Below are positions 32,020 to 37,943 of a DNA stretch of 56,641 nt, one piece after another (within the stretch, counting starts at the first letter, position 1; each line of letters starts with the position of its first letter). Both the position numbers and the translations under genes were made by a program. The notes below the pieces were generated by a model, which did no database searches, was not told where the DNA came from, and was given only the letters and a program-made list of their open reading frames with translations. This DNA comes from Aestuariivirga sp. (GTDB taxonomy: Bacteria; Pseudomonadota; Alphaproteobacteria; Rhizobiales; Aestuariivirgaceae): assembly GCF_020252395.1 (NCBI RefSeq), contig NZ_JADCDB010000015.1, forward strand, positions 1 through 56,641, given 5' to 3'.

Positions 32020-32580
32020 CTAGACCTTCATCCCATCGGCCCCGCGGGTGATGCCGGCGACGCCGGTGCGGGCGACTTCGACGAGGCCCAGCGGCACCAT
32101 GAGCGAGATGAATTGCTCCACCTTGTCGGTCTTGCCCGTGATCTCGAAGATGAAGCTCGATGTGCCGGCATCGATGACGCGGGCGCGGAAGGCATCCGCC
32201 AGGCGCAGGGCCTCGACGCGCTTCTCGCCCGTACCCGAAACCTTGACCATCGCAAGCTCGCGGGTGAGCGCGTTGCCCTGCACAGTCAAGTCCGCAACGG
32301 AGTGCACAGGCACCATGCGGCCGAGCTGGTTCTTGATCTGCTCGATCACCGCGGGCGTGCCGCTGGTGACGATGGTGATGCGCGAGACGTGCTTCTCGTG
32401 CTGCGTCTCCGACACGGTGAGTGACTCGATATTGTAGCCTCTCCCTGAGAACAGGCCGATGACGCGGGCAAGCACGCCCGGCTCGTTGTCGACGATCACG
32501 GCGAGCGCGTGGGTTTCGGCCACCGGCTTGACGGTGTCGAGGAAATAGGCCGAGCCCGAGGGCTGAAGATGTGCGTTCAT
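32020..32580 (-). CDS. ilvN: Acetolactate synthase small (regulatory) subunit
   Basis: Valine-binding regulatory subunit of acetohydroxyacid synthase. The 186-residue protein carries the N-terminal ACT domain (HALAVIVDNEPGVLARVIGLFSGRGYNIESLTV) followed by the C-terminal ALS_ss domain (ELAMVKVSG, then FIFEITGKTDKVEQFISLM). The stop lies at the border of an AT-richer segment next to rimO. It is 17 bases downstream of the large-subunit gene, so both form one operon under the leader-peptide attenuator at 34426-34530. It is also called ilvH. Confidence 0.95.
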   Translation of the reverse strand: MNAHLQPSGSAYFLDTVKPVAETHALAVIVDNEPGVLARVIGLFSGRGYNIESLTVSETQHEKHVSRITIVTSGTPAVIEQIKNQLGRMVPVHSVADLTVQGNALTRELAMVKVSGTGEKRVEALRLADAFRARVIDAGTSSFIFEITGKTDKVEQFISLMVPLGLVEVARTGVAGITRGADGMKV

Positions 32581-32597: not shown

Positions 32598-34367
32598 TTA
32601 GACCAGCATCTTGCCCTTGGCGTCGATCACCGTGCCGACATCCTCGTCTGCCACGTCCTCGCCCAGGATCATCTCGTTATGCGCCTTGCCCGAGGGGATC
32701 ATCGGGAAGCAGTTGGCGAGGGCCGCCACGCGGCAGTCGAAGATCACCGGGCGCTTGACCTTGATCATTTCCCTGATCGCATCGTCGAGCTCCAGGGGCT
32801 TGGTGGCGCGCATTCCCACACAGCCATAGGCCTCCGCCAGCTTGACGAAATCCGGCAGCGCTTCCGTATAGGAGTGCGACAGACGGTTGCCGTGCAGCAG
32901 CTGCTGCCACTGGCGCACCATGCCCATGTACTGGTTGTTGAGGATGAAGATCTTGATCGGCAACTCATACTGAATGGCAGTCGACATTTCCTGCATGGTC
33001 ATCAGAACCGAGGCGTCACCCGCGATATCGATGACGAGGGCATCGGGGTGCGCCTGCTGCACGCCCACCGCGGCGGGCAGGCCATAACCCATGGTGCCGA
33101 GGCCGCCCGACGTCATCCAGCGGTTCGGTTCCTCGAAGCGGTAGAACTGCGCAGCCCACATCTGGTGCTGGCCCACTTCCGTGGTGATGTAGGTGTTCTC
33201 GTTCTTGGTCAGCTCATAGAGCCGCTCGACGGCATATTGCGGCATGATGACGTCGTCATTCTTCTTGTAGCGGAGGCAGTCCTTGGCGCGCCAGCCGTCG
33301 ATCTGCTTCCACCAGGTGTCGAGGGCCTTCTTGTCGAGGGTCACGGACTTCGCCTTCCAGACGCGGATCATGTCTTCCAGCGCATGCGCCACGTCGGCGA
33401 CGACCGGCACGTCGACGCGCACCGTTTTGTTGATGGACGACGGGTCGATGTCGATGTGGATCTTCTTCGAATTTGGCGAGAAGGCGTTGAGGCGGCCGGT
33501 GATGCGGTCATCGAAGCGGGCGCCGGCGCAAATCATCACGTCGCAGTCATGCATGGCCATGTTGGCCTCGTACATGCCGTGCATGCCGAGCATGCCGAGC
33601 CAGTTCTTGCCCGATGCCGGATAGGCGCCGAGTCCCATCAGCGTGGAGGTGATGGGGATGCCGGTCATCTCCACGAAGTCGCGCAACAGCTTGGATGCCG
33701 TGGGTCCCGAGTTGATCACACCGCCGCCGGTGTAAAGGATCGGGCGCTTCGCGGTGGCGATCAGCTCCACCGCGGCGCGGATGGCGTTCTGGTCGGCCTT
33801 GACCTGCGGGCGGTAGGTCTTGTGCTCGATGTTCTTGGGGCCGACATAGCGGCCCTTGGCGAACTGCACGTCTTTCGGGATGTCGACGACGACCGGGCCG
33901 GGGCGGCCGTGGGTGGCGACATAGAAGGCCTCATGCAGGATGCGCGCGAGGTCGTTCACGTCCTTCACCAGATAATTGTGCTTGGTGCAGGGGCGCGTGA
34001 TGCCGACAGTGTCGCATTCCTGGAAGGCGTCAGAGCCGATCAGGTGGGTTGGCACCTGGCCGGTGATGCAGACCATGGGGATCGAGTCCAACAGCGCATC
34101 GGTCAGGCCCGTCACCGCATTGGTGGCGCCGGGGCCGGAGGTGACAAGCACCACGCCGCACTTCCCAGTGGAGCGGGCATAGCCTTCCGCGGCATGGGTG
34201 GCGCCCTGCTCATGGCGGACGAGGATGTGCTCCACCTTCTCCTGCTGGAAGATCTCGTCATAGATCGGCAGCACCGCACCGCCCGGATAGCCGAACACGG
34301 TGTCGACCCCTTGGTCCTGCAGCGCCTTCAGCACCATTTCGGCGCCGGTCATCTCGTTGGTGGCCAT
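32598..34367 (-). CDS. ilvB: Acetolactate synthase large (catalytic) subunit
   Basis: Thiamin-diphosphate enzyme that makes acetolactate or acetohydroxybutyrate, the first common step to valine, leucine and isoleucine. The 589-residue chain starts MATNEMTGAEMVLKALQ (ATG 34367, AGAGGTGAG ahead); the open frame extends upstream into the leader but that part is not protein. It shows the catalytic glutamate in VRHEQGATHAAEGYAR, the substrate-channel segment QVPTHLIGSDAFQE and the ThDP/Mg site beginning GDASVLMTMQEM with the later NNQYMGMVRQW. It is also called ilvI. Confidence 0.97.
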   Translation of the reverse strand: MATNEMTGAEMVLKALQDQGVDTVFGYPGGAVLPIYDEIFQQEKVEHILVRHEQGATHAAEGYARSTGKCGVVLVTSGPGATNAVTGLTDALLDSIPMVCITGQVPTHLIGSDAFQECDTVGITRPCTKHNYLVKDVNDLARILHEAFYVATHGRPGPVVVDIPKDVQFAKGRYVGPKNIEHKTYRPQVKADQNAIRAAVELIATAKRPILYTGGGVINSGPTASKLLRDFVEMTGIPITSTLMGLGAYPASGKNWLGMLGMHGMYEANMAMHDCDVMICAGARFDDRITGRLNAFSPNSKKIHIDIDPSSINKTVRVDVPVVADVAHALEDMIRVWKAKSVTLDKKALDTWWKQIDGWRAKDCLRYKKNDDVIMPQYAVERLYELTKNENTYITTEVGQHQMWAAQFYRFEEPNRWMTSGGLGTMGYGLPAAVGVQQAHPDALVIDIAGDASVLMTMQEMSTAIQYELPIKIFILNNQYMGMVRQWQQLLHGNRLSHSYTEALPDFVKLAEAYGCVGMRATKPLELDDAIREMIKVKRPVIFDCRVAALANCFPMIPSGKAHNEMILGEDVADEDVGTVIDAKGKMLV

Positions 34368-34425
34368 CTCACTCACCTCTTCAAATTGAGCGTTCGTCAA
34401 ACACATGTTGGGTGATCCAGGCAAC

Positions 34426-34506
34426 AAAAAAGGCCCCCAAGGGAGCCTCATTTCCGCGCAGCGCCACCTGATCCTGGAGGCTTTAAACCTCCCCGGCGCT
34501 GCGCGG
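34426..34506 (-). promoter_or_regulatory. ilv attenuator: alternative hairpins and terminator
   Basis: On the minus strand, arm 1 CCGCGCAGCGCC (34506-34495) lies within the leader-peptide codons and pairs perfectly over 12 bp with GGCGCTGCGCGG (34465-34454). Between them a small GGAGG/CCTCC hairpin forms. The terminator is GGCTCC-CTTG-GGGGCC (34447-34432) followed by six Ts (34431-34426). AGCCTC of the small hairpin can instead pair with GAGGCT at the terminator's left arm, giving an antiterminator. The layout is that of classical leader-peptide attenuation. Confidence 0.85.
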
Positions 34507-34530
34507 ACCTACTACAAGAATGGTGTTCAT
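34483..34530 (-). CDS. ilv operon leader peptide, 15 residues
   Basis: The peptide is MNTILVVGPRSAGEV. It places Ile, Leu, Val and Val in a row just ahead of the codons that form arm 1 of the attenuator. Stalling for lack of any charged branched-chain tRNA would free the downstream arms and allow read-through into ilvB. There is no Shine-Dalgarno, and the candidate promoter at 34539-34567 puts the transcript start at or within a few bases of the ATG, so the peptide may be read from a leaderless message, as reported for trpL in Sinorhizobium. Confidence 0.85.
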   Translation of the reverse strand: MNTILVVGPRSAGEV

Positions 34531-34538
34531 CGGCTAAC

Positions 34539-34567
34539 TCATTAGGGGGCGGGAGGGGCGGCGTCAA
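34539..34567 (-). promoter_or_regulatory. Candidate ilv promoter
   Basis: On the minus strand TTGACG (34567-34562) is followed after 17 bases by TAATGA (34544-34539). The -10 match is poor, but the -35 is good and the position predicts transcription starting at about 34532, next to the leader-peptide ATG (34530). Confidence 0.45.
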
Positions 34568-35069: not shown

Positions 35070-35213
35070 TCATTCGACGGAAGCGCTTTGCAAGGATGAG
35101 GGCTTGCTCCGGCGGGTCATGGTCCCGATGGCCAGTCAGTCTCCCCCCTCATGCCTCAGCGATTGACCGCTGCCCGAACATCGGGCACGCATGGTTTTCC
35201 ACTCGGATTCCGG

Positions 35214-36110
35214 ATGAACAGCACCAAGACCCGCGCCATTCTCGCCCTGATCCTCGCCATGCTGTTCTGGGGCTGCGCTGCCGTTTTCATGCGCACGCTG
35301 GCGCTGGCGCTGAGCGCCGGGAACTCCATCGCGCTGCGCTATGTGGTGCTCAGCATCATCAGCCTTGGCGGTCTGCTTTGGCTTGGCACATGGCGCATCC
35401 CGCGGGCGGACTGGCCGCGTTTCCTCATCGCCGGGCTTGCCGGCATGGCGGGCTACAACTGGTTCGTGAACGCCGGCTTCGAGCTGGTGCCCGCCGGCGT
35501 GGGCACGCTGGTCACCATGATCGAGCCGCTGATGATCGCCATGCTCGCGGCCCTGACGCTGGGCGAGAAGCTGACGCGCTATGTGCTGCTCGGCGTGGCG
35601 CTGGCGATTGCGGGCTCCATCGTTCTGTTCTGGCCGGACCTCACCACCGAAACGCAACACCCGGTTTCGGTCCGCGGCCTTGTCTACCTGCTCCTGTGCT
35701 GCATCGGCTGGGCGATCTATACGATCGCGACGAAGCCCCTGCTCAACCGCCATGACAGCTTCACCGTCACCGCCGTCACCATGCTGATTGCAGCCCCCAT
35801 CATGATCGGCGCGGCCAGTGAGCCGCTGCCGCAGCTTGCCGCAAGGCTCGACGCCCGCCAGTGGTTCGAGGCTGCCTATCTCGTGCTCGCCTCAGGCCTC
35901 GGCGGCACCATGCTGTGGAACTACGGAGCCAAGCACCTCTCCAGCACCGCGGCAGGAACCTTCCTCTACCTGATCCCGGTTATCGCGGTGGCGGCAGGCG
36001 CACTGGTGCTGGGCGAGCAGGTGACGGCCTATGTGGTGGCGGGCGGGCTTCTTATGCTGGCCGGTGTCGCCGCCGCGCAATTCGGCCCCACCCTCATGAG
36101 CCGAAGGTAG
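35214..36110 (+). CDS. DMT-superfamily (EamA) transporter, single unit
   Basis: A 298-residue inner-membrane protein with ten predicted helices in two EamA repeats (about 10-140 and 155-290). Typical parts are AMLFWGCAAVFMRTLA at the first helix, GTLVTMIEPLMIAMLAAL, and the second repeat ending FLYLIPVIAVAAGALVLGEQVT. EamA proteins export or import small metabolites; the substrate is unknown. ATG 35214 was preferred to a start 63 bases upstream that adds a non-hydrophobic leader. It is six bases upstream of the fused DMT gene, to which it is clearly related. Confidence 0.88.
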   Translation: MNSTKTRAILALILAMLFWGCAAVFMRTLALALSAGNSIALRYVVLSIISLGGLLWLGTWRIPRADWPRFLIAGLAGMAGYNWFVNAGFELVPAGVGTLVTMIEPLMIAMLAALTLGEKLTRYVLLGVALAIAGSIVLFWPDLTTETQHPVSVRGLVYLLLCCIGWAIYTIATKPLLNRHDSFTVTAVTMLIAAPIMIGAASEPLPQLAARLDARQWFEAAYLVLASGLGGTMLWNYGAKHLSSTAAGTFLYLIPVIAVAAGALVLGEQVTAYVVAGGLLMLAGVAAAQFGPTLMSRR

Positions 36111-36116
36111 GCCGTC

Positions 36117-37943
36117 ATGGAGCTCCGCGCCTTCGCGGCCATGATGTTCACCATCGTCATATGGGGCATCGGACCCGTGTTCCTGCGCTCGCTCTCGGTC
36201 GAACTCGGTCCCGCCGACCACCTTGTTATCCGCTATACCATCGTCACCGTCATTTATGCGTTCAGCCTGGCGATCTTCGGCGGCTGGCGCATCGAGCGGA
36301 AGGACTGGCCGCGCCTGCTCGTTATCTCGCTCATCGGCATGATGGGCTACAATCTCGGCTCCGCCTTCGGCTTCGCGCATGTGACCGCCGGCATCGGCAG
36401 CCTCATCATCGGCACACAGCCGCTGCTCATCGCGCTGATGGGCACGCTCATCGCCAAGGAGCGGCTCACGCTCGCCGCCATCGCGGGCCTTATCATCGGA
36501 TTCCTCGGCATCGTGCTGCTGGTCTGGCACGACCTCGGCAGCAGCACCGACGGCTGGGGTTTCCTCGCCGGCTGCACCCTGATCTTCCTGTCGGGCGCGG
36601 CCTGGGCGGTCTATGTTATCGTCAGCAAGCCGCTGATCCGGAAATACGGCGCCTTCAGCATCTCGGCCATGTCGCTCTCATTGTGCTCATTGGCGATGGT
36701 GCCCATGCTGGCCCGGCCATCGACCCTCACGACGCTGACCAATATGACGGCCCGCAGCTGGCTGGAGCTCGGCTACATCGCCATCATCTCCACCATGCTG
36801 TGCTCTGTCACCTGGAACTATGCCGCCTCGCGCATGCGCGCCGCGGCCTCCGGCGCCTTCCTCTATCTGATACCGATCATCGGCGTCGCCGCAGGCGCCG
36901 TGATACTGAGCGAGCACGTCACCTCGGGCATGGTGATGGGTGGCGCCCTGATTCTCATCGGCGTCGCCATCGCCCAGTTCGGGGGCAGGCTCAGGCTCGG
37001 TGGCAGCCTTGCGGCGCTGGCCGCCGTGCTCTTCGCCGTCACCATGTGGGGGCTGATCCCGGTGGCCATGCGCTATCTCATCACCGAGCTCAGCCCGCAG
37101 ACGGCCATGGTGCTGAGGCTTTATCCGGCGGGTGTCCTCGCCATTATCGTCTGCATTTTCACCGGCGTGCGTCCGATCGCCTGGCGCGACTGGGGCCGCA
37201 TCGCGATTGCGGCGCTGGCAGGAAATCTCGGTTACCAGATCCTCGCCGCCTTCGGCATGCAGTCGGTGCCGGCAAGCTGGACCGGCCTCCTCTTCGGCCT
37301 CGAACCCGTGTTCATCGCGCTCTTCGCTGTGGTGCTGGCGGGGGACCGTCTCACGGCCTGGCTCATCGGCGGCATCTTCGTCTCGATGCTGGGCACCGCA
37401 GCGCTGATGCTGGGCAGCACGCTGTCGCCGTCCGGCGATGTCTCGCTGTTTGGCCTTGTGCTGGTGACGCTCTCGACCATGGGCTGGGGCATCTACACGG
37501 TGGTGATCCGCCCGGCGACGCTGAAGTACGGTGCACTTCCGGTGTCCTGTCTTGCCATGGCCATCACCGCGCTCCCAATGCCGTTTTTCGTGAGCCCCGG
37601 CCTGCCGCTCACGCTCGCTTCCATGACCGGCGCCTCGTGGCTGGCCGTCGGCTTCGTCGTGGTGTTCGGCACCTTCCTCGCCACCGCGGCATGGAACTAT
37701 GCGCTGGGGGCAATGGACAGCTCGATTGCCGGCGTCTTCCTGTATGTGCAGCCGGTGGTGGCGGCAATCGGCGGCATCCTGCTCCTGGGCGAGCGCCTTA
37801 CCTGGCCATTGCTGCTGGGCGGCGCGCTGATCGTCCTGGGCGTCGCCATCGCCCAGTTCGGGCCACTCATCACCAGGCGCGTTGCAGCCATCGGCAATTC
37901 GCGTTTGAGGGGCGCGCGCGAGCCCGTTATGGAAACACCATGA
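36117..37943 (+). CDS. Double-length DMT (EamA) transporter: two carriers fused head to tail
   Basis: The 608-residue chain is twice the usual DMT length and predicts about 20 helices. Residues 1 to about 290 form one complete ten-helix carrier (MMFTIVIWGIGPVFLRSL ... GVAIAQFG). Residues about 295-600 form a second (LFAVTMWGLIPVAMRYL ... GVAIAQFG). The end of each half repeats the same phrase GVAIAQFG, and the free-standing neighbour at 35214-36110 ends in the similar GVAAAQFG, so a duplicated gene has lost its stop codon. The C-terminal tail is basic. Its stop overlaps the next start (ATGA). Confidence 0.9.
   Translation: MELRAFAAMMFTIVIWGIGPVFLRSLSVELGPADHLVIRYTIVTVIYAFSLAIFGGWRIERKDWPRLLVISLIGMMGYNLGSAFGFAHVTAGIGSLIIGTQPLLIALMGTLIAKERLTLAAIAGLIIGFLGIVLLVWHDLGSSTDGWGFLAGCTLIFLSGAAWAVYVIVSKPLIRKYGAFSISAMSLSLCSLAMVPMLARPSTLTTLTNMTARSWLELGYIAIISTMLCSVTWNYAASRMRAAASGAFLYLIPIIGVAAGAVILSEHVTSGMVMGGALILIGVAIAQFGGRLRLGGSLAALAAVLFAVTMWGLIPVAMRYLITELSPQTAMVLRLYPAGVLAIIVCIFTGVRPIAWRDWGRIAIAALAGNLGYQILAAFGMQSVPASWTGLLFGLEPVFIALFAVVLAGDRLTAWLIGGIFVSMLGTAALMLGSTLSPSGDVSLFGLVLVTLSTMGWGIYTVVIRPATLKYGALPVSCLAMAITALPMPFFVSPGLPLTLASMTGASWLAVGFVVVFGTFLATAAWNYALGAMDSSIAGVFLYVQPVVAAIGGILLLGERLTWPLLLGGALIVLGVAIAQFGPLITRRVAAIGNSRLRGAREPVMETP

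Follow-up and report, generated by a model that had tools for sequence, protein, structure and literature searches.

In this study, we identified what is probably a ribosome-mediated transcription attenuator of ilvB-ilvN in Aestuariivirga sp., with a leader peptide that would be translated from a leaderless RNA (5′-UTR of 0–2 nt). It lies on the minus strand of the window, that is, the whole stretch of 56,641 nt that was analysed. The leader peptide ORF MNTILVVGPRSAGEV (34483–34530) has 15 codons and a TAA stop codon at 34485–34483 (ATG AAC ACC ATT CTT GTA GTA GGT CCG CGC AGC GCC GGG GAG GTT TAA), and consecutive Ile-Leu-Val-Val control codons (ATT CTT GTA GTA) are read at 34510–34521. Folding gave three structures: the stem P1, with a perfect 12-bp core (left arm 34495–34506, right arm 34454–34465) that grows to 14 pairs in the minimum free energy (MFE) structure through an extra A-U and an extra G-U; the middle hairpin P2 (34476–34492; arms 34492–34486 and 34482–34476), which has the stop codon TAA as its three-base loop; and an intrinsic terminator (34426–34449), also found by a terminator scan, with an 8-bp stem (arms 34449–34442 and 34437–34430) and then six T (34431–34426). 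The terminator is the one found between the leader ORF and ilvB, against 0.5 expected from shuffles. The 105 nt from the ATG to the T tract have an MFE of −50.2 kcal/mol, compared with −36.8 (sd 3.6) for shuffles (z = −3.7), and none of the 200 shuffles was equally low. Downstream are ilvB, for the acetolactate synthase large subunit (32598–34367; TPP_enzyme_N/M/C), and ilvN/ilvH, for the small subunit (32020–32580; ALS_ss_C, ACT_AHAS_ss), both on the minus strand. All these parts, from the 15-codon ORF to ilvB, were found on the minus strand where the sequence-only reading had put them. That reading also had the left arm of the stem overlapping the leader codons; the arm does cover codons 9–12, but it follows Ile-Leu-Val-Val and does not include those codons. 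Because the P1 core starts 3 nt past the last Val codon, stalling on the control codons would place the ribosome over the left arm.

On the other flank, the closest neighbour of the attenuator that could be identified is an EamA transporter gene (35151–36110) in the opposite orientation, so the attenuator leader is probably the first element of its operon. The product of this plus-strand gene has two EamA stretches, and the neighbouring ORF (36117–37943, plus strand) is 608 aa long with four EamA stretches, equivalent to two such transporters in one frame; both ORFs adjoin the attenuator on the other strand.

The promoter of the window places the transcript start very close to the leader AUG. 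A −35 element, TTGACG (34562–34567), stands at the same TTGAC-to-ATG distance as in relatives and is separated by a 17-nt spacer from a weak −10 element, TAATGA (34539–34544), with 8 nt between its last base and the ATG. From this geometry we infer a candidate start at 34530–34532 (minus strand) and hence a 5′-UTR of 0–2 nt. The −35 element proposed earlier was sound, but TAATGA failed the −10 rule of a promoter scan, which returned no sigma-70-type site between 34350 and 34850. The absence of a Shine-Dalgarno sequence was borne out, the energy being only −2.2 kcal/mol. Two further counterpoints are that the −1 base is G and that a canonical start 7 nt past the −10 element would give a 2-nt leader. 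On balance, and taken together with the relatives described below, the sequence evidence indicates that the ilv leader peptide of the window is very probably leaderless.

To place the window among its relatives, we used 130 loci, comprising 30 from a relatives sample that includes the window (L017), 20 new ones from the order and 80 hand-picked loci, the last mostly one or two per genus among the matches listed, with weaker matches under-represented. An ORF in which three or more Ile, Leu or Val codons follow one another was present in all 130 fetched loci; as controls, the opposite strand gave such an ORF in 6 of 130 cases and a stretch some 190 nt further upstream in 16 of 130. IlvB followed the leader in 125 loci. 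A scan of named records (80 loci, 72–79% IlvB identity, many of them metagenome-assembled genomes, near relatives possibly absent) gave a leader by the selection rule in 59 loci and none in 21; the 59 include L163 and L175, which both have the same sequence as L002 in the 130-locus set. Of these 189 leaders, L143 lacked a T run and was dropped, and the remaining 188 were thinned to 100, of which 88 were aligned and 12 left out. The RNAalifold consensus of the 88 sequences contained P1, P2 and the terminator. In 15 of its 18 pairs at least one sequence was changed on both sides with pairing kept, namely in 7/7 pairs of P1, 4/4 of P2 and 4/7 of the terminator. Double-changed cells numbered 212, compared with 75.3 (sd 6.9) in shuffles, none of 500 being as high, and 89.7% of cells were paired, compared with 77.8% in shuffles; when the partners were slid by 1–3 columns, 36–60% of cells were paired, with 14–72 double changes. 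The claim of a branched-chain attenuator is therefore upheld by conserved control codons, a covarying stem, a terminator and IlvB downstream, and the lack of conservation in relatives that had been named as a refuting outcome did not occur.

Promoters at these loci were scored as −35/−10 pairs (TTGACA, 16–18 nt, TATAAT). With ad hoc weights and a cut-off of 12.5, both chosen by us after the scores were known, the distance from the −10 element to the start codon was bimodal, at 6–9 nt in 59 loci and 24–69 nt in 63, with 8 of the 130 having no clear promoter. The window (gap of 8 nt, ATG start) and its genus belong to the short-gap group. Thus, a promoter at leaderless distance from the AUG is widespread, which supports by comparison, short of proof, the leaderless leader proposed for the window, but it is not general in the order. 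The two groups differed in several respects. All 59 short-gap loci but only 50 of 63 long-gap loci start with AUG, although in either group the start-codon rule gave ATG precedence over GTG and TTG. The Shine-Dalgarno energy was −4 kcal/mol or lower in 5/59 short-gap and 54/63 long-gap loci (medians −0.7 and −5.9 kcal/mol), and a pyrimidine stood at −1 in 57/59 and 34/63, the window with its G being one of the two short-gap exceptions. The contrast persisted in the thinned set, both for AUG (31/31 vs 53/63, p = 0.03) and for the pyrimidine (29/31 vs 35/63, p = 0.0001); in the named records it held for AUG (37/37 vs 16/20, p = 0.01) and was weak for the pyrimidine (35/37 vs 15/20, p = 0.08). 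Elsewhere in these loci, three of 8905 ATGs reached the score of the window (13.5) at 6–9 nt, compared with 57 of the 130 leaders; at a score of at least 14 the figures were 0/8905 and 51/130. The pattern CTTGAC-N17/18-TA-N10/12-ATGA occurred at eight places in the genome that holds the window, and the reversed pattern at none. Three ORFs of this genome with ATGs at leaderless distance from a promoter-like pair, L249 (189 aa), L251 (297 aa) and L255 (135 aa), are possible leaderless genes.

In the window's own family (f1), 28 loci were short-gap and one unclear; the short-gap form accounted for 16/16 loci in f23 (the family holding Rhizobium ecuadorense), 9/9 in f27, 2/2 in f22, 2/8 in f16 and 2/13 in f6, and no short-gap locus was found in the remaining families of the 130-locus set. 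A further 27 loci of f23, all preceding IlvB, were short-gap without exception. The 59 named-record leaders comprised 37 short-gap, 20 long-gap (22–34 nt) and two unclear cases. The short-gap names include Rhizobium, Mesorhizobium, Agrobacterium, Allorhizobium, Sinorhizobium, Neorhizobium, Ochrobactrum, Aminobacter, Nitratireductor, Mycoplana, Aurantimonas and Jiella, among others, and the long-gap names include Bradyrhizobium, Bosea (two records), Microvirga, Chelatococcus, Methylocystis and Methylocella, among others. Given that relatives fall into a short-gap and a long-gap group, the initiation mode, as read from promoter geometry, has switched at a homologous attenuator. A quick IlvB tree (about 195 residues, 168 of 205 rows, those of unclear mode or identical sequence dropped, changes counted without direction) gave at least eight mode changes, compared with about 56 for shuffled labels; eight is a point estimate because 86 of the 165 inner branches are weak, and the well-supported branches force at least two. 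Homologous attenuators that stand before the same gene in both forms in related bacteria offer a natural comparison for leaderless initiation, and may help to answer why and how attenuator leader peptides use it.

The element of the window is the same RNA as a known Rfam family. A cmscan search matched RF02502 at 34416–34537 (minus strand; 65.9 bits, gathering cut-off 50, E 1.2e-13) over the whole model (1–122 of 122), and the alignment takes in the control codons, P1, P2 and the terminator. Rfam files RF02502 not as a cis-regulatory leader but as ‘Gene; sRNA’, under the name Rhizobiales sRNA Atu_C8. Since the attenuator of the window belongs to it, this sRNA family is, judged by sequence, an ilv attenuator leader, and it thereby gains a likely function. 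Its place ahead of ilvB in 125/130 loci argues for reclassifying it as a cis-regulatory leader. At E ≤ 0.001, RF02502 was detected in 46/61 genomes of the relatives sample (38 above the cut-off), 165/297 genomes from the order (53 above), 78/81 genomes of f23 (75 above) and 4/192 genomes across the class (two above; the window's own genome included), numbers obtained with strict filters that lose weak matches and with a model that hardly reaches attenuators of other orders; none of 14 control genomes gave a match. For two relatives, L150 (Agrobacterium genomosp. 13) and L002, the first base of the match is the G of the leader AUG. If the ends of RF02502 follow the sequenced sRNA, the 5′ end would lie at the AUG in Agrobacterium too.

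We propose that the attenuator works as follows. A ribosome would bind the growing transcript at its 5′ AUG. When charged Ile, Leu and Val tRNAs suffice, it would pass Ile-Leu-Val-Val, reach the stop codon in the P2 loop and leave; P1 would then fold, the terminator would form and an RNA of about 105 nt would be released. When Ile, Leu or Val tRNA is uncharged, the ribosome would stall on these codons and mask the left arm of P1, and with P1 unfolded RNA polymerase would continue into ilvB. We searched by folding for an antiterminator that could carry the effect of P1 loss to the terminator. Masking the stalled ribosome did not remove the terminator at equilibrium: its mean probability was 0.95 with and without stalling (100 sequences). 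In transcripts that end short of the terminator's right arm, pairing of the left arm rose from 0.37 to 0.57 on stalling (102 sequences), the change being an increase of more than 0.2 in 52 sequences and a decrease in five. However, shuffled left arms (12 per sequence) reached 0.55 in the stalled state, compared with 0.57 for the native ones (p = 0.52). The gain on stalling was nevertheless larger for native than for shuffled left arms (0.19 vs 0.06), because the native arm is freer while P1 is formed. With the ribosome at the stop codon, left-arm pairing was 0.49, compared with 0.58 when stalled, and it was lower by more than 0.2 in 24 sequences and higher in one (106 sequences); in the window the two states were nearly equal (0.72 at the stop, 0.74 stalled). 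As shuffled controls equalled the native arms and the two states of the window hardly differed, these tests do not demonstrate a specific antiterminator. The model that we put forward is that P1 favours termination and that a stalled ribosome would block P1.

These folding tests bear on how far P1 acts by itself. P1, folded behind RNA polymerase, might be decisive in aiding termination, with the stalled ribosome merely preventing it from forming; this is an alternative that we regard as possible but take up only tentatively. It would account for the failure to find a specific antiterminator in spite of double changes in 7/7 consensus pairs of P1, and for the larger gain of the native left arm on stalling. 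The folding models are simple, however, and a weak or kinetic antiterminator would escape them; L012 and L022 do pair the left arm of P2 with the left arm of the terminator in the stalled state, and the lower pairing of the terminator left arm at the stop codon than on stalling is what a classical antiterminator predicts.

Other alternatives concern the transcript rather than the fold. The attenuator may be genuine while its transcript starts further upstream, with initiation that is independent of a Shine-Dalgarno sequence on a normal 5′-UTR. In favour of this, homologous attenuators in many families have a gap of 24–69 nt, mostly with a Shine-Dalgarno sequence, so that attenuation as such needs no leaderlessness; moreover, the −10 element of the window is weak and the promoter scan finds no consensus promoter there. 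Nevertheless, the window itself has just a weak Shine-Dalgarno sequence, the short-gap group uses AUG starts only, and the 28 scored loci of f1, like all 16 plus 27 loci of f23, have their promoter 6–9 nt from the AUG. A longer transcript in the window is thus improbable. The Rfam type of RF02502 raises the further question of whether the RNA is a trans-acting sRNA that lies ahead of ilvB by chance, its ORF and terminator being incidental. With the run of Ile, Leu or Val codons in 130/130 loci, IlvB downstream in 125/130 and an ORF rate of 6/130 on the opposite strand, we give this almost no credence. The same catalogue entry would also suit a cis attenuator whose terminated RNA or peptide acts in trans as well, by analogy with rnTrpL and peTrpL, for which trpL of Sinorhizobium meliloti provides a precedent in passages of PMC7298713 and PMC10117765; such a dual role is conceivable here, although we think it unlikely. 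A cis-acting, leaderless attenuator of ilvB-ilvN remains the preferred reading.

Attenuators of ilvB and ilvIH in Alphaproteobacteria were reportedly described by Vitreschak in 2004, and attenuation of Caulobacter ilvBN is said to have been found by Tarleton in 1994. Several lines of published work bear on the attenuator of the window, and alphaproteobacterial ilv attenuation, leaderless trpL and an ilv leader free of a ribosome-binding site are all already known. Passages in the literature treat ilv attenuation in Caulobacter (PMC4117421), list the S. meliloti ilvIH leader as a cis-regulatory element, after Vitreschak 2004 (PMC2573895), and cite an alphaproteobacterial ilvB leader peptide as described before (PMC1273637). 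These systems likewise have a leader ahead of acetolactate synthase genes, and the passages concerned do not state the mode of leader initiation. Going by its description, trpL/rnTrpL of S. meliloti is likewise an attenuator leader peptide that begins at the RNA 5′ end (passages of PMC10117765 and PMC7298713), but it has Trp codons, precedes trpE(G) and is reported there to act in trans. In the window's own genome, a search for a leaderless trpL by the pattern TGGTGGTGGGC, which covers only its codons and spacing, gave 23 places; all were read and none was accepted, the two short ORFs with Trp codons among them having, by eye, neither an attenuator promoter nor a terminator. Leaderless transcripts have been described in S. 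meliloti, where all start with AUG (in part of PMC3616915), and in Bradyrhizobium (in part of PMC4842269). No word beginning with ‘ilv’ occurs in the main texts of PMC3616915, PMC4842269, PMC10117765 and PMC10469942.

A parallel in another phylum is ilvBNC of Corynebacterium glutamicum, whose branched-chain amino acid leader peptide is likewise described as lacking a ribosome-binding site (title of Morbach 2000, cited in PMC10272879); a passage of PMC11857589 discusses leaderless initiation for it. Given this precedent, leaderlessness in an ilv leader does not amount to a new kind of element. The passages of PMC10272879 and PMC11857589 on the C. glutamicum leader make no mention of a switch between leaderless and led forms. 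The ilvB1 attenuator of Mycobacterium tuberculosis, as described in part of PMC13236596, likewise has control codons (LVVI) and a terminator ahead of ilvB1 but differs in its leader of 166 nt. In the literature searched (main texts or abstracts, as far as they were covered), leaderless alphaproteobacterial ilv leaders were not stated, and neither a lineage switch of initiation mode nor an attenuator before a Bcr/CflA transporter was reported. The switch of mode between lineages and the transporter-linked copies are the more interesting part of our results.

Six copies of the leader precede a transporter gene rather than ilvB: L035, L084 and L085 (f23) and L043 and L044 (f6), all among the 130 loci, and L270, which comes from a different order within the class. 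All six are short-gap (7–8 nt). The transporter products share 49–81% identity with one another, those of L084 and L085 being cut by the fetched stretch. Pfam searches with two of the six, the L035 and L043 proteins, gave MFS_1 for both; against NCBIfam TIGR00710 (Bcr/CflA efflux, cut-off 200.9), the L043 protein scored above the cut-off (217.1) and the L035 protein below it (178.9). The leader peptides contain MALVVV, MVVV, MIVV, MVLIVV, MVLVVV and SVVV. In view of runs such as MVVV, MALVVV and SVVV, valine dominates these leaders. The copies suggest that an amino-acid attenuator may be reusable as a translation-stress switch. One could go further and regard the leaderless branched-chain leader as a portable ribosome-sensing module, which would have switched repeatedly between leaderless and Shine-Dalgarno forms, would stand in Val-rich copies before Bcr/CflA-like genes in three or more families (one from a different order) and might, as the terminated Atu_C8 RNA, also act in trans; this is speculative and, in our opinion, rather doubtful. 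If it were true, a slowed or starved ribosome would turn on export by a Bcr/CflA-type transporter.

More than one copy of the leader was seen in some genomes. Rhizobium ecuadorense (G058) has a second leaderless copy (L083) before an IlvB paralogue with 69% identity to the IlvB of the window. Two RF02502 matches were also found in G207 and G570 among the 81 genomes of f23, the second match of G207 (L084) being transporter-linked. In family f11, the pairs L064/L065, L066/L067 and L122/L123 each consist of two attenuator copies that share a strand and are separated by about 2.7 kb, and each copy precedes an IlvB-like gene; within each pair a clear long-gap promoter is seen at one copy only, and L065, L067 and L122 are the copies that lack one.
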